Below, piece after piece: positions 55,157 to 62,218 of a stretch of DNA of 64,000 nucleotides. The notes under the pieces are model-generated. The model made no database searches. It saw nothing but the letters and a program-made list of their open reading frames with translations, and was not told the origin of the DNA. The translations under genes were made by a program, and so were the position numbers. Position 1 is the first letter of the stretch, and every line of letters starts with the position of its first letter. The stretch is from contig NZ_JAPSLK010000001.1 in assembly GCF_031180885.1 (NCBI RefSeq), positions 661,158 to 725,157 of the forward strand, given 5' to 3'. The stretch comes from Saccharothrix sp. GTDB lineage: Bacteria; Actinomycetota; Actinomycetes; Mycobacteriales; Pseudonocardiaceae.

Positions 55157-56283
55157 GCACGTGGCAGGAGGAACGTCGCGCGAACCGTGCCGCCGAGGCC
55201 GCGATCCGGCGGGCGGACAAGGACGCCGAAGCCCAACGGCGTCGGGCCGACCAGGCGGCGGCGGTCCAGCTGCGGCAGGAGCGGGCCGACACCGCCCGGG
55301 ACCGCCGTGTCCGGGCGGTCAAGGCTGCGGGGGCCTGGGTGCGGTCGAACGTGCTGGAACTGCTGTTCGTTCCGGTGATCGTGGTTCCGGCCGTGCTGGC
55401 GTGGACGGCGATGGCCGCCTACGGGCAGGAGGTGTTCGGCCCGGCCGGCGTGTTGCTGCCGCTGTTCTCCGAGGGCGCGATGTGGACGTTCGCGTTCGCC
55501 GTGCCGATGGCGCAGCGCGCCGGCCGCTCCACCGGCTGGCTGCACCTGGGCGTGTGGGTGTTCGCGGCCGTGGCCGCGATCCTGAACTACGTCCACGGCC
55601 AGACCGTCGCCCACGGCGTGGTCATGGCCCTGGTGTCGGTGGGCGGGGTCGTGGTCCACCAACTCATCACCGCCTCCCCGCTGGGCCGCCGCCCGACCCG
55701 GGCCGAACGCGACCACGCCCGACTCCAGCGCCTGGCCGCGCGGCGGGTGGTCGCGGTGCGGCGCGCCGCCGTGCGGCAGGCCGCCGCCGCGCTGGCCGCC
55801 GACGGCACCGCCACCCTCGTGCACGCCCCCGGCGTGGTGCGGCTGCGCCGCCGCGTGCTGGGCCGCGCGCGGCTGGTGCCCGCCGTCGTGGCCGGGCTGC
55901 CCGTCGCCGGCGGTGCCGGCGACAGCATCGCCGAGCAGATCGCGGCGGAGATCGGCGAGTACCTGGGCGCGCTGCCCGCGCCGCGCCCCACCGCCGACGC
56001 CGCCGACGACCGGCCCGGGACGGGCGCGGAGATCGGCGCGCGGCCGGCGGGAACAGCGGAAACCGACACCGCGCCGACCGACCCGAAGATCACGCGCTAC
56101 AGCGCGCGGGTGCGGGCCGCGATCGACGGCGAACGGCTTCCCGCCGACCCGTCCCGCAAGCAGGTGCAGCGGTTCCTGCGCTGCCGCGCCGAGGACGCCG
56201 CCGCCGTGCACCGCGTCCTGTTCCCCGCCCACCCGGACAACGGCCCCGACGACGACGGCCCCCGTGAGGAGGTGACCGCATGA
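55153..56283 (+). CDS. AICE membrane protein (SpdA/DUF2637-like layout)
   Basis: A 376-residue protein. A charged coiled region (EAEAQRRRADQ-like, residues 5-60) precedes four hydrophobic helices (LLFVPVIVVPAVLAWTAMAA, GAMWTFAFAVPMAQRAG, WLHLGVWVFAAVAAILNYVH, GVVMALVSVGGVVVHQLITA). A long Ala/Arg-rich cytoplasmic tail ends with a helix-turn-helix-like segment (KQVQRFLRCRAEDAAAVHRV). The layout fits DUF2637/SpdA-type proteins next to traB in actinomycete elements. GGAGG at 55143 precedes the ATG; the stop overlaps traB. Confidence 0.75.
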   Translation: MSTWQEERRANRAAEAAIRRADKDAEAQRRRADQAAAVQLRQERADTARDRRVRAVKAAGAWVRSNVLELLFVPVIVVPAVLAWTAMAAYGQEVFGPAGVLLPLFSEGAMWTFAFAVPMAQRAGRSTGWLHLGVWVFAAVAAILNYVHGQTVAHGVVMALVSVGGVVVHQLITASPLGRRPTRAERDHARLQRLAARRVVAVRRAAVRQAAAALAADGTATLVHAPGVVRLRRRVLGRARLVPAVVAGLPVAGGAGDSIAEQIAAEIGEYLGALPAPRPTADAADDRPGTGAEIGARPAGTAETDTAPTDPKITRYSARVRAAIDGERLPADPSRKQVQRFLRCRAEDAAAVHRVLFPAHPDNGPDDDGPREEVTA

Positions 56284-58535
56284 CCACGCCCCACCCCCAC
56301 CACGACCGCGACCACGACGACCCGCGCGGCGGGACCGGTGTGCGCGACAACGTCGTGCCGCTGCGCCCCGCGCCGCCCGCCGCAGGGACGCAGATCGAGC
56401 CCGCCCCGCCCGTGGTCGAAGGCGAGTTGCTGACCGAGGAGGAGTCGGCGGCGCTGGACCGCCGGCTGGCGGCGCAGCGGGCCGAGCGGCTGCGCGCGGC
56501 GGCGGGCACGGTCGCGCGGGTGGTGCGCACCGGTGCCACCCACGACCGGACCCGCCGGGCCGGGCGCGCGGTGGTGCGCAACGCCCTCTACGTGCCGGCC
56601 GGCGCGGGCGTGGTGGGCCGCCAGGTGTGGGAGGCCCACACCACCGCCCGCTACCAGCGGATGATGCGCGCGGCCGAAGCCGCCGGGGACTTCGCGGCGG
56701 TGGCGGAGTGGGAGGAGCGGCAGGCCCGGTTCGTCGCCGAACGGCACCGCCGGATCATGACGTGGCTGGCCGCCCCGGTGCACGTGGTCAAGGCCGTGCT
56801 GGTGGTGCTGGTCGCGCTGGTCGGTGTGCTGGTGCTCACCGGCCTGGTGCTGGCGGTCGACAGCGGGGACCTGGCCGCGTTCCTGACCCCGTTCGCCACC
56901 ACGTTCGCGGTGCTGTCCGGGGTGGTGTCGGTGATCGACGCGGTGTGGGGGCCGTTGACCACGGTGGCCCCGTTCGCCGCGCTGGCGTGGCTGTGGCATG
57001 TGGGCCGCACCCGCACCACCCCTCCCGCGTGGGTCGCCGCGCACCGGCCGGAGGACCGCGCGGACGTGCCGATCACCCCGTCGGTCCTGGTGACCGCGCT
57101 GCGGGACCTGGGCGTGTCCAAGCTGACCAAGGAAATCAAGGCGATGGGCGACGCCGGCGCGGGGATGCTCGGGCTGATCCGCATCGCCGGGTGCGGTGTC
57201 GAGGTGGACGTCACCCTGCCCTCGGGGGTGTCCACCCACGACATCACCGGCAAGCGACGACGCCTGGCGGAGAACCTCTACCGGCACGAACACGAGCTGT
57301 TCATCACCATCCCGCCGGCCGCGCGCACGGTGCGGCTGTGGATCGCCGACCCGGGCGCGCTGGACGAACCGATCGGCCCGTCCCCGCTGGTCACCGACCC
57401 CACGACGACCGCCGACATGTACACCGGCCGCGCCCCGTGGGGCCAGGACCTGCGCGGCGACGCCATGGCGTTGTCGCTGCTGCAACGGCACCTGCTGATC
57501 ACCGGCCTGTCCAACCAGGGCAAGACCGCCGCGCTGCGCGCCCTGGCGCTGTGGCTGGCCCTGGACGCCACGGTGGAGTTCCGCATCGCCGACCTGAAGG
57601 GCATCGGCGACTGGCACATGTTCGCCGACCTGGCCACGGTCCTGATCGAAGGCCCGACCGACCCCGACGCCTGCGCCGCGACGCACATGCTCGAAGCCGG
57701 CGTGGAGGAGATGGAACGTCGCCTGGCCGCCGTGGACCCCGAGACCCACAAGAACGGCGTCACCCGCGACCTCGCGCGCGCCGGCCAAGGGTTCCACCCC
57801 CTGGTGCTGATCGTGGACGAAGCCCAGCAGGCGTTCATGAACCCCGCCATCGGCGAGGACAAGCGGCCCTACGGCGGACAGACCAACAAGAGCCGCTACT
57901 TCATGGCCGCCCGCAAAATCCACAACCAGGGCCGGGCGGTCAACGTCACCCTGTGGCAGGGCACCCAGAACCCCACCGACCAGAACCTGCCCAAGCTCGT
58001 CCGCGAGGGCGCGCACATCCGCGCCTCCCTCGTCGTGGGCACCGAGAGCGAGGCCCGCATGGCGTTGGGGGACAAGGCCGTCAACGCCGGCGCGGCACCG
58101 CAGGAACTGCGCCAGGGACTGGACAAGGGAACCCTGCTCGTCGCCGGCGACGGCGTCCCGCTGCCCCCGCAACAGGCCGCCATCACCGTGCGGACCCACT
58201 TCATCGACGGAGAGGACGCCACCGCCATCGCCGACCGCGCCAAGACCCTGCGCACCCGGCACACCGCCACCGACACCACCCCGGCACCCGCACGCGACCT
58301 GCTCGCCGACGTGGAACAGGTCATGGGCGAGGAAGTCCGCGTGCTCACCGAAGTGGTACGTCAGCGCCTAGCCGAACTGGACGCCGTCACCTACGAAGGC
58401 ATGACCGCCGAAGACCTCACCCAAGGTCTCGCCCTCGACGGCGTCGAGCCCTACAAGTACAACGGCCGCAAGCACCTCAGGCTCGCCGAAGTCCGCGACG
58501 CGCTCACCGTCCGTGACAACCAGCCCGGCGAGTGA
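56280..58535 (+). CDS. traB: FtsK/SpoIIIE-type DNA translocase for conjugative transfer
   Basis: A 751-residue TraB-like motor that pumps double-stranded DNA between mycelial cells. It has a long N-terminal charged region, two to three membrane helices at ~175-245 (VKAVLVVLVALVGVLVLTGL and following), and the ATPase domain with Walker A LITGLSNQGKTAALRAL at ~412 and Walker B HPLVLIVDEAQQAFMN. NVTLWQGTQNPTDQNLPKLV is the family segment after it. The C-terminal ~70 residues form a winged-helix-like part (YEGMTAEDLTQGLALDGVEP, NGRKHLRLAEVRDAL) that would read the clt repeats. ATG overlaps the previous stop. It is the central transfer gene. Confidence 0.9.
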   Translation: MTTPHPHHDRDHDDPRGGTGVRDNVVPLRPAPPAAGTQIEPAPPVVEGELLTEEESAALDRRLAAQRAERLRAAAGTVARVVRTGATHDRTRRAGRAVVRNALYVPAGAGVVGRQVWEAHTTARYQRMMRAAEAAGDFAAVAEWEERQARFVAERHRRIMTWLAAPVHVVKAVLVVLVALVGVLVLTGLVLAVDSGDLAAFLTPFATTFAVLSGVVSVIDAVWGPLTTVAPFAALAWLWHVGRTRTTPPAWVAAHRPEDRADVPITPSVLVTALRDLGVSKLTKEIKAMGDAGAGMLGLIRIAGCGVEVDVTLPSGVSTHDITGKRRRLAENLYRHEHELFITIPPAARTVRLWIADPGALDEPIGPSPLVTDPTTTADMYTGRAPWGQDLRGDAMALSLLQRHLLITGLSNQGKTAALRALALWLALDATVEFRIADLKGIGDWHMFADLATVLIEGPTDPDACAATHMLEAGVEEMERRLAAVDPETHKNGVTRDLARAGQGFHPLVLIVDEAQQAFMNPAIGEDKRPYGGQTNKSRYFMAARKIHNQGRAVNVTLWQGTQNPTDQNLPKLVREGAHIRASLVVGTESEARMALGDKAVNAGAAPQELRQGLDKGTLLVAGDGVPLPPQQAAITVRTHFIDGEDATAIADRAKTLRTRHTATDTTPAPARDLLADVEQVMGEEVRVLTEVVRQRLAELDAVTYEGMTAEDLTQGLALDGVEPYKYNGRKHLRLAEVRDALTVRDNQPGE

Positions 58536-59947: not shown

Positions 59948-59998
59948 ATGCCCTTATCCGCGATCAAGGCCGCCACGCACGCGCGAGGGGTGGCGTGA
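59948..59998 (+). CDS. 16-residue ORF coupled to the methyltransferase
   Basis: MPLSAIKAATHARGVA, with an ideal ribosome site (GGAGG at 59936-59940, 7 nt before ATG). The stop overlaps the methyltransferase GTG (GTGA). It may serve as a leader that delivers ribosomes to the methyltransferase. The 59734-59947 stretch before it contains a second copy of the 16-mer CGGGGACGTGACCACC (59574 and 59871) and no other gene. Confidence 0.45.
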   Translation: MPLSAIKAATHARGVA

Positions 59999-61071
59999 GC
60001 ACGCTGAGGGTCGGTGGCCTGTTCGAGGGCTACGGCGGCTTGACCGCCGCCATCCGCGCCGTGCTGGGCGGCCGGCCCGCCTGGTTCTGTGAGAACGACC
60101 CGGGCGCGTCCGCCGTGCTGGCGCACAACCAACCCGAGGTGCCCAACCTCGGGGACATCACCCGCGTGGACTGGGACACCGTGCCGGGCGTGGACGTGCT
60201 CGCCGGCGGGCCGCCCTGCCAAGACCTCAGCCTCGCCGGGGCAGGCGCGGGTCTGCGGCGGGGCACCCGGTCCGGACTGTGGTTCCACATGGCCGACGCC
60301 ATCGCCGCGCTGCGCCCGCGCCTGGTCGTCATCGAAAACGTGAGGGGACTGCTCAGCCGTGAAGCCGATAGCGACGTGGAACCCTGCCCGTGGTGTCTGG
60401 GAGACCGAGCAGACGTCCCTGCTCTGCGGGCACTCGGAGCCGTACTCGGCGACCTGGCCGGCCTCGGGTACGACGCGCGGTGGTGTGGCCTACGCGCATC
60501 CGACGTCGGCGCGCCACACGAACGGTTCCGGATCTTCGTCGTTGCTGCCCACGCCGACAGCGGCGGATTCGGACCGCTCCAGCGCGACGTACGTGAGGGG
60601 GAACCCGACCCTGGTGGGCGCGTTGTTGCCGACACCGACCGCGTCCGACGCCAACGGCCCCGGCCTGCACGGGACCGGAGCGGCGGACCTGCGCACCACC
60701 GTCCGGATGCTGCCGACGCCGACCGCACGCGACGGCAAGGGGCCGAACCAGCGCGGGGACGCGACGTGCCTGCACGGGGCGCTGCTGTCCAGTGGGGAGC
60801 CTACGAACCCGCAGTCCGCCGCTGGGAAACCGTGCTAGGGCGACCCGCGCCCGCACCCAGCGTCCTCGGACGCAAGGGCAACGCGGTGCTCAACCCGGTG
60901 TTCGTGGAATGGCTCATGGGCCTCGACCAGGGGCACGTCACCGCCGTACCCGGCCTGTCGCGCACCCAACAGCTCCGCATCCTCGGCAACGGCGTCGTGC
61001 CGCAACAGGGCGCTGCGGCCCTGCGCCGACTACTGCACCGCGAACACAACGCCGTCCCGCAGGCGGCATGA
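59995..61071 (+). CDS. DNA cytosine-5 methyltransferase
   Basis: A 358-residue C5 methyltransferase. Motif I is RVGGLFEGYGGLTAAIRAVL (SAM binding), motif IV GGPPCQDLSLAGAGAG with the catalytic Cys, motif VI VVIENVRGLL, and motif VIII ASDVGAPHERFRIFVVAA. The C-terminal motifs IX-X are LGRKGNAVLNPVFVEWLMGL and RILGNGVVPQQGAAALRRLL. The target-recognition part (about 205-290) is low-complexity and Arg-rich, and there a second frame has better codon bias. No restriction enzyme is adjacent, so it is probably a solitary protective or anti-restriction methylase. GTG start with GAGGGG before it. Confidence 0.88.
   Translation: MSTLRVGGLFEGYGGLTAAIRAVLGGRPAWFCENDPGASAVLAHNQPEVPNLGDITRVDWDTVPGVDVLAGGPPCQDLSLAGAGAGLRRGTRSGLWFHMADAIAALRPRLVVIENVRGLLSREADSDVEPCPWCLGDRADVPALRALGAVLGDLAGLGYDARWCGLRASDVGAPHERFRIFVVAAHADSGGFGPLQRDVREGEPDPGGRVVADTDRVRRQRPRPARDRSGGPAHHRPDAADADRTRRQGAEPARGRDVPARGAAVQWGAYEPAVRRWETVLGRPAPAPSVLGRKGNAVLNPVFVEWLMGLDQGHVTAVPGLSRTQQLRILGNGVVPQQGAAALRRLLHREHNAVPQAA
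60359..60838 (+). CDS. Possible overprinted gene inside the methyltransferase (LLPTPTA-repeat protein)
   Basis: In the +1 frame relative to the methyltransferase, a 159-residue ORF from the GTG at 60359 reads KPIATWNPARGVWETEQTSL, then EPYSATWPASGTTRGGVAYA, then three repeats: SLLPTPTAADSD, LLPTPTASDANG, MLPTPTARDGKG. Phage and mobile-element proteins with TWPxSGxTRxGxAY and LLPTPTAxD repeats near Dcm genes are known to me, but their function is not. By my count third-position GC is about 87% in this frame against about 70% in the methyltransferase frame over the same stretch. It could be a real overlapping gene, or trace of a frameshifted recognition domain. Confidence 0.5.
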   Translation: MKPIATWNPARGVWETEQTSLLCGHSEPYSATWPASGTTRGGVAYAHPTSARHTNGSGSSSLLPTPTAADSDRSSATYVRGNPTLVGALLPTPTASDANGPGLHGTGAADLRTTVRMLPTPTARDGKGPNQRGDATCLHGALLSSGEPTNPQSAAGKPC

Positions 61072-61168: not shown

Positions 61169-62218
61169 ATGTCCACAAACTCTGTTGCCGACCGCGCGGC
61201 CGGTGCGGCCCGGTGGGTGGCGGCCCGTCTGGGCTGGCAGGTGCTGCCGCTGCACCCGGACACCAAGCGGCCCCTGGCGGGCTGCCCGGACTGCCGGGGC
61301 AGCGGGCACACCGCCGCGCAGTGCCGCTGCCTGGCCCGCCGTGCGGGCGCGTTGTGCCACGGGGTCTGGGCGGCCAGCAACGACCCCACCGTGGTCGACC
61401 GGTGGGCGACCCGGTGGCGCACCGGGGTGTGGGCGGTGCACCTGGGCGTGTCCGGCCTGCTGTGCGTGGACCTGGACGTCCACGGCGGCACCCCGCCCGC
61501 CCAGCCGCTCAACGGCGTCCCGTGGCCCGACGGCGAGCCGCTACCGGTGGACGGCATCGGGACCTTCGCGATGCTGGCCGGGCTGCGGGACGCCCCGGTG
61601 GACCCTGGGACCCTGTCCACCGAGACCCCCTCGGGCGGGCTGCACCTGCTCTACACCGCCCAGCCGGGCCGGTGGAAGTCCAGCACCGGCCGGGTCCGCG
61701 ACGGCGACGACACCGTGCGCACCGGGCTGGGCTGGCAGATCGACATCAAGGCCCACGGCGGCTACGTCATCCTGCCCGGCTCGACCACCGCCGCCGGCAC
61801 CTACCGGCGCGCCTCCGCGACCGTCACACCCGCGCCGCTGCCGGGCTGGCTCGCCGCAGACTTGGCCCGCACCGGCCACGACAAACACGCCACCGCGCCC
61901 AGGCCGCCGGCACCCCAGGTCACGGTCACCGCACGCGGCGACGAGCGGCAGGCCCGCTACGCGGCGGGGGCGCTGCGGTCCGCGTGTGCCGAGATCGCCG
62001 CGATGCCGCCGGACTCGGGCCGCAACCGCAAGCTGTTCCGCTCCGCCTCAAGGCTGGCCGGGATGGTCGAGGCCGGGTGGATCGACCGGGACCAGGTGGA
62101 GACCGCGCTGGCCGAGGCCGCCGCACACGCCGCACTCCCGGCCGGGGAGATCCGCTACGCGATCGCGTCCGGCTTCCGCAACACCCGGCCCGCGCCAGAG
62201 CACAGGAGCGCTTCATGA
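61169..62218 (+). CDS. Bifunctional DNA primase/polymerase (Prim-Pol)
   Basis: A 349-residue Prim-Pol of the AICE/plasmid type that synthesises primers and extends them for element replication. The catalytic region includes AVHLGVSGLLCVDLDVHGGT with the DxD metal pair, then TETPSGGLHLLYTAQPG and WQIDIKAHGGYVILPGS with the conserved His and Asp. The N-terminal LGWQVLPLHPDTKRPLAGCP is typical for the group. A primase C-terminal helix bundle (PDSGRNRKLFRSASRLAGMV) follows. GGAGGGA precedes the ATG. The stop overlaps the next gene. Confidence 0.88.
   Translation: MSTNSVADRAAGAARWVAARLGWQVLPLHPDTKRPLAGCPDCRGSGHTAAQCRCLARRAGALCHGVWAASNDPTVVDRWATRWRTGVWAVHLGVSGLLCVDLDVHGGTPPAQPLNGVPWPDGEPLPVDGIGTFAMLAGLRDAPVDPGTLSTETPSGGLHLLYTAQPGRWKSSTGRVRDGDDTVRTGLGWQIDIKAHGGYVILPGSTTAAGTYRRASATVTPAPLPGWLAADLARTGHDKHATAPRPPAPQVTVTARGDERQARYAAGALRSACAEIAAMPPDSGRNRKLFRSASRLAGMVEAGWIDRDQVETALAEAAAHAALPAGEIRYAIASGFRNTRPAPEHRSAS

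Follow-up and report, generated by a model that had tools for sequence, protein, structure and literature searches.

The window, that is, the whole stretch of 64,000 nucleotides that was analysed, carries on its forward strand a gene for a C5-cytosine DNA methyltransferase (hereafter alpha), within which a second reading frame lies nested in +1 (hereafter beta). In alpha, residues 6-189 match PF00145 (E = 3e-30) and residues 4-129 align with M.HhaI in phmmer (E = 3e-12); the protein also matches phrog_116 (3e-72) and phrog_363 (3e-69), and the catalytic-domain motifs GGPPCQD, ENVRG and APHERFRIF are all present. Residues 257-357 match positions 221-328 of phrog_1008, a region that other loci have fused to beta. 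No target-recognition domain was found between motifs VIII and IX of the window's alpha; a low-complexity stretch lies there, with the LLPTP modules out of its frame. The features are listed below, where IX and X are the names that we take to apply to the C-terminal motifs of alpha.

59995-61071, forward strand: alpha, C5-cytosine DNA methyltransferase, 358 residues, GTG start (PF00145, PHROG and M.HhaI matches)
59995-60357, forward strand: alpha-only stretch with the PCQ and ENV motifs, free of beta (third position most divergent in relatives, a single-frame codon pattern)
60342-60348, forward strand: Shine-Dalgarno-like GAGGGGA, from the GTG AGG GGA that spells V-R-G in alpha (sequence; AGR enrichment in relatives)
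60359-60838, forward strand: beta, predicted nested gene of 159 residues with a GTG start, overprinted on alpha in +1 (phrog_1008, E = 5e-26; frozen alpha codons in relatives; openness and similarity beyond synonymous nulls)
60359-60541, forward strand: N-terminal segment of beta (KPIATWNPARGVWET ... TWPASGTTRGGVAYA), sharing its DNA with alpha as far as motif VIII and across it (A1 profile in +1 over alpha)
60496-60549, forward strand: motif VIII of alpha (ASDVGAPHERFRIFVVAA), dual-coded with PTSARHTNGSGSSSLLP of beta
60542-60622, forward strand: beta module 1, LLPTPTAADSDRSSATYVRGNPTLVGA (a type found in 5 loci including the window)
60623-60706, forward strand: beta module 2, LLPTPTASDANGPGLHGTGAADLRTTVR (a type found in 27 loci including the window)
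60707-60784, forward strand: beta module 3, MLPTPTARDGKGPNQRGDATCLHGAL, the same DNA reading AADADRTRRQGAEPARG in alpha (close counterpart in locus L022)
60787-61068, forward strand: C-terminal part of alpha, QWGAYEPAVRRWE ... LNPVFVEWLMG (IX-like, from 60889) ... LGNGVVPQQ (X, 60982-61008)

The neighbouring genes in the window, for an FtsK-like protein (56280-58535) and a primase-polymerase (61169-62218), fit an actinomycete integrative element. The source genome has a second methyltransferase (L012, G000:C16:24027-24434, minus strand; partial, running off the end of its stretch), the beta frame of which carries LLPTP repeats too.

The original prediction, made from the letters of the window, had described an open +1 frame of 159 codons at 60359-60838 with three LLPTPTA-type repeats and the segment TWPASGTTRGGVAYA, and a motif VIII that is kept in the methyltransferase frame; both are there, and the +1 frame begins with GTG. 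Its estimates of third-position GC were also about right, the alpha frame having 92.6% before beta, 67.5% inside and 84.4% after it, and the beta frame 87.4%; the drop of alpha inside beta is significant (108/160 versus 177/198, Fisher p = 4e-7). The better codon bias of the second frame stands as a figure but loses its weight as evidence, since synonymous shuffles of alpha give 86.5%: position 3 of beta is position 1 of alpha, which makes the GC3 of the beta frame uninformative alone. Moreover, 28.5% of 5000 synonymous alpha shuffles of the window sequence leave beta open. With openness and GC3 both near the null, the window sequence alone proves little, and judging beta from the window alone was rejected. 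Beta matched no family in Pfam or NCBIfam, and PADLOC returned nothing for it.

Position of the nested frame across relatives

A tblastn search with beta retrieved 231 phage and 7 plasmid records. At loci chosen in this way by beta, and with the window copies included, a profile of the N-terminal segment of beta (A1) gave 232 matches, all of them in +1 over alpha, and a scan of named genomes placed the A1 match in +1 over alpha at 76 of 76 loci. Because these loci had been chosen by beta, the search was repeated with the first 121 residues of alpha only, which lie outside the overlap with beta. Among the best 80 viral loci of a larger candidate set, beta was in +1 at 79, and the same query found it in +1 at 28 of 29 actinobacterial loci, window included (29 of 30 had a long enough alpha match). 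As here, several of the candidate sets for relatives were the best 80 of larger sets. Judged by these comparisons, beta is kept in the same position in nearly all relatives examined.

The two exceptions to the alpha-only query are L235 and L339. At L235 an insertion that carries GLIDGEG, a LAGLIDADG-like motif, breaks the methyltransferase near the start of beta, and a lone LAGLIDADG insertion has been reported in phage methylases of such kind (PMC11855218). The distant methyltransferase controls comprised 20 regions, eight of them with a long enough alpha match; seven of these were without beta and one (L359) had it, and one of the seven (L353) carries the second +1 family, beta2, described below.

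All 392 alpha matches that reach past motif VIII (24 of 416 stop short of it) read that motif in the alpha frame, with the beta frame across it in +1. On this ground a frameshifted methyltransferase was rejected, and equally an enzyme that normally uses the beta frame, an outcome that the original prediction had named as telling against itself. The stand-alone LLPTPTA genes for which it had hoped were absent from the loci examined, where the N-terminal match of beta lay over alpha. Ten matches initially flagged as beta alone turned out to be second matches to the LLPTP part, with the overlapping match present at the same loci.

Among the actinobacterial copies, those of many Streptomyces species in one series of loci (L364-L428, mostly Streptomyces) resemble one another, often with about 36-42% to the query and the same match length; instead of coming from phages recently, they may represent a version inherited with the chromosome.

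Selection in the shared DNA

For the codon analyses, 230 loci were reduced by similarity to 188 non-redundant alphas, 145 of which had enough codons in both zones and were used for divergence and synonymous nulls. Within the overlap, several synonymous alpha codons are near-fixed among the 188 alphas (Gly GGG 161/167, Glu GAA 136/143, Pro CCT 101/107), at loci that span GC contents from 0.40 to 0.75. In disjoint pairs, the third-position divergence of alpha falls from upstream to overlap from 0.162 to 0.101 (18 pairs), from 0.397 to 0.244 (28) and from 0.469 to 0.371 (57), and is lower in the overlap in 12/18, 26/28 and 48/57 of them, respectively; in the same pairs the divergence of alpha position 1, which is the wobble position of beta, rises on average. 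At conserved fourfold columns, mean third-base identity is 0.52 in the overlap (10 columns) versus 0.33 upstream (15 columns). With the window as reference, 38 of its 40 nearest relatives have a lower third-position rate inside the overlap.

A second pair set was drawn from 195 distinct genes with IX in alpha (86 disjoint pairs, 63 of them inside identity bands of 27, 18 and 18; the window's row was removed as a duplicate). It displays a single-frame pattern before and after beta and again a suppressed third position in the overlap, where position 1 rises little or not at all (0.020 to 0.032, 0.064 to 0.072 and 0.148 to 0.119). Over the modules, alpha position 1 is freest in all three identity bands.

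Openness and similarity of the beta frame exceed what synonymous resampling of alpha gives. Of the 145 relatives, 141 have an open beta frame, where 42% would be expected, and so do all 49 with an alpha GC below 0.60, where the expectation is about 10%; stops in the beta frame, which had been named beforehand as a refuting outcome, thus concern only four of the 145. Each of the 145 rows scored higher against the beta model than any of its 20 synonymous nulls, and 124 of these rows were outside model building, with an observed median of 87 bits against a null median of 24.7 and a null maximum of 64; the rows are related sequences, so that p-values are overstated.

These data bear on whether beta might be a shadow frame, an accident of high GC and of amino-acid conservation in alpha. 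Such an accident would account for the shuffles of the window that stay open and for a GC3 as the null expects, and the conservation of alpha alone does give a +1 null median of 24.7 bits, but it leaves unexplained both the excess of the observed median over the null maximum and the openness of all 49 low-GC relatives, as well as synonymous codons frozen across loci of such different GC. At the family level it is refuted by the low-GC relatives, and we consider it extremely improbable. Much the same holds for a DNA or RNA element, such as a recombination site or an RNA structure, that would constrain synonymous sites with no second protein: signals for recombination might accompany the shuffling of the modules, but the constraint tracks the codon frame of beta, the wobble position of which is freest over the modules in the three identity bands, and the protein similarity of beta persists between loci of very different GC. 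The chance that such an element accounts for the pattern seems to us negligible.

The view that both frames are under selection and that the smaller is overprinted on the larger, put forward in the original prediction, is thus borne out by the frozen alpha codons and by the openness of beta. On this codon and similarity evidence, both frames are under protein-level selection in the DNA that they share, and beta is a real overprinted gene.

The start region of beta points in the same direction. The arginine of the ENVRG motif, which contributes to the Shine-Dalgarno-like sequence, is encoded by AGA or AGG in 95 of 136 relatives, compared with 180 of 1088 upstream arginine codons, and the serine codon that gives beta its GTG start is AGT in 92 of 148, compared with 79 of 1106 upstream (171 of the 188 rows were used for this enrichment, and 167 for the survey of start sites). 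The consensus of the 92 AGT rows is GAGAACGTGAGGGGACTACTCAGTGCC; the GTG of the window, at 60359, lies one codon beyond their site. Of 167 relatives, 98 have a start codon at the conserved site, the first four beta codons; another 55 have one only outside that site, between -20 and +12 codons, and 14 have none in this range.

Modules, layouts and a second +1 family

The 329 distinct loci fall into three main layouts. IX/X lie in beta at 101 of them (layout A); at 154, the window's kind, IX/X lie in alpha with fewer than two LLPTP modules there (layout B); and at 55 alpha holds IX/X together with at least two LLPTP modules, beta keeping its N-terminal segment (layout C). The remaining 19 are incomplete or of another layout. 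Beta is wholly nested in alpha in 161 of the 195 distinct IX-in-alpha genes. The phrog_1008 profile extends across beta and on into IX/X, and the modules with IX/X borne by beta align with those borne by alpha (E = 2e-55). The interval from VIII to IX is the place of the target-recognition domain (TRD) in methyltransferases; since modules and IX/X occur in either frame, in the order VIII - modules - IX/X, this order puts the modules at the target-recognition place. At the level of sequence, motifs and a putative TRD would thus be divided between the two frames, with IX/X in beta at 101/329 loci and modules in beta.

The layouts with two genes also raise the question of whether a programmed ribosomal frameshift might fuse the N-terminal part of alpha to beta, so that no separate beta would exist. 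Forms in which alpha ends soon past VIII and beta holds IX/X are what such a fusion would look like, and methyltransferases are named among frameshift-containing genes in a part of PMC10885494. A frameshift has no need, however, of the AGR and AGT enrichments at the start of beta, which are far above the codon use of alpha; placed after VIII, it leaves the protein conservation of beta upstream of VIII unexplained, and the 161 nested forms need alpha in frame for IX/X. We regard it as quite improbable, and favour beta as a separately made protein.

The number of LLPTP-like motifs ranges from one to nine in the 315 distinct betas (one has none). Clustering of 538 internal modules, at an ad hoc similarity threshold and with a few clusters that look like N-terminal debris, gave 121 clusters, 25 of which hold 381 modules, and the same module types recur at different loci. 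A repertoire of recognition units that is being shuffled would be expected to look like this, if the modules are such units, as their place suggests.

Structure prediction was carried out for one protein of each kind. L144, an alpha with modules (374 residues), is predicted as a C5-methyltransferase (pTM 0.73), with M.HhaI as best solved match (E = 2e-14). L261, a beta with IX/X (241 residues), has a confident N-terminal part of 50 residues in five strands (block means of pLDDT 78-94) and a helical IX/X part, at an overall pTM of 0.39; its fold search was weak (best E = 0.76), and the 50 matches listed were all DNA methyltransferases. The overprinted N-terminal segment of beta is accordingly modelled as a credible domain. 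In both models the tandem LLPTP modules, the stretch between VIII and IX, are predicted at low confidence, mostly with pLDDT below 50, and a TRD fold is without structural support there. A search of the beta profile against solved structures gave no relative (best E = 0.28, unrelated proteins).

A second +1 family, beta2 (SGMGSPTEFLTLNTSEWPS...ILRRAEKRGKKLPPAL), lies over motif VIII in a different group of phage C5-methyltransferases (L436-L535, and L353 on the reverse strand at 1120-1461). Among the matches listed for beta2 queries it is in +1 at 89 of 100 loci, and with an alpha-only query, among the best 80 of a larger set, at 61 of the 63 loci with a readable motif VIII (17 of the 80 are unreadable); both exceptions have beta2 letters in +1, behind a stop in one and cut off in the other. 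Alpha codons of this group are frozen at 72 non-redundant loci of GC 0.39-0.71, one valine being GTT in 69 of 69; these loci were picked by the presence of beta2, so that its open frame is no independent test and the frozen codons are. The beta2 frame also lies in +1 inside dmt (marked incomplete) of phage P1 (L616, AF234173.1), at 1501-1707, and is itself unannotated. A profile comparison of beta and beta2 gave a probability of 49% with the SGM segment in register; a shared origin is possible, confounded by the conservation of alpha itself. Beta2 suggests that the overprinting arrangement over motif VIII is widespread. Overprinting of motif VIII might even be old and general in phage C5-methyltransferases, beta and beta2 being branches of a +1 specificity or partner chain and the LLPTP modules shared, shufflable DNA-recognition units, a tentative idea to which we give somewhat less than an even chance.

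A proposed two-chain methyltransferase

The reading that we prefer, with a probability of roughly 0.7, is that alpha is the catalytic chain, and that beta is an overprinted and internally initiated protein that pairs with it, its modules supplying target recognition. Alpha would be a phage-type enzyme with motifs I-VIII and IX/X and, in its own frame, a low-complexity linker at the target-recognition place. Beta would be made by internal initiation at its own GTG behind the Shine-Dalgarno-like sequence. Alpha would bind AdoMet and flip and methylate the cytosine, and beta would dock on it through its N-terminal domain; the modules of beta would read the DNA, each perhaps one target. Module swaps would then change the methylation of the phage or integrative element and may lead to escape from host restriction. 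That beta is one chain of the methyltransferase is argued by relatives that fuse LLPTP modules to IX/X in the beta frame or carry the modules in the alpha frame. Where the original prediction had seen a small gene of unknown function, the overprinting stands, and the function can be placed as one chain of a two-frame methyltransferase.

Beta might instead be real without being a specificity subunit; it could, for instance, be a partner in assembly, inhibit host restriction or regulate alpha. Its N-terminal segment is kept even where the modules sit in alpha and is the only new domain that the models fold with confidence, and the C-terminal part of beta2 differs, seven aligned sequences being free of LLPTP there. 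On the other hand, beta carries modules and the methyltransferase's own IX/X at 101/329 loci, and between VIII and IX the window's alpha offers no further candidate for recognition. We consider such a role unlikely, if well ahead of a frameshift, and retain beta as the probable specificity chain.

Known systems offer partial parallels. In M.EcoHK31I the gene of the small chain lies within that of the large one, in a different frame; by comparison, the window has the module array in beta and keeps IX/X in alpha. The two-subunit C5-methyltransferase M.AquI (CYCGRG) is a two-chain precedent for alpha and beta with a short overlap, whereas here the overlap is the N-terminal segment of beta over motif VIII, and the form in the window is fully nested. 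In its tandem layout the LLPTP array resembles the multispecific enzymes of Bacillus phages, which are single chains in a single frame. A part of PMC3404938 gives M.EcoHK31I (YGGCCR) as a precedent for two polypeptides that form one C5 enzyme, and adds that, among artificial fragments of C5 enzymes, complementation is best if the cut falls between VIII and the TRD. For the Bacillus phage C5-methyltransferases, several tandem TRDs and several target sequences are described in a section of PMC8936443.

The label of PHROG 1008, 'DNA methyltransferase', covers a profile that matches the N-terminal segment and modules of beta and, in its last part, IX/X; the label says methyltransferase, yet the matched betas are without motifs I-VIII, and the listing is silent on the +1 overlap. 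The HNH insertion in phage DNA methylase genes (ShiLan gp65), as far as a partial account of it goes, is likewise a hidden second frame, but a mobile one found in some phages, unlike a frame that is conserved and reads the methylase's own sequence in +1. Among the papers listed by searches of the open-access literature (PMC) we recognised nothing that describes the +1 frame of beta or the LLPTP modules.

Annotation has tended to pass over this frame. In ten annotated records, beta is missing from the entries for the five loci that have IX/X in alpha, and at the five with IX/X in beta (L003, L004, L005, L007 and L009) the start of the second gene is placed about 200-350 bases downstream of the conserved beginning of beta, and the overlap is therefore hidden. 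If the proposed reading is true, a textbook enzyme class would consist, in phages and actinobacteria, of two genes in two frames, and would be a strong natural example of overprinting that is conserved and joins two proteins of a single enzyme; hundreds of sequences from phages and actinobacteria show this double-coding. It would also offer a testable modular code, namely which LLPTP module recognises which DNA sequence, and would bear on restriction evasion by phages and integrative elements and on the genes that are hidden by overlap-avoiding annotation.
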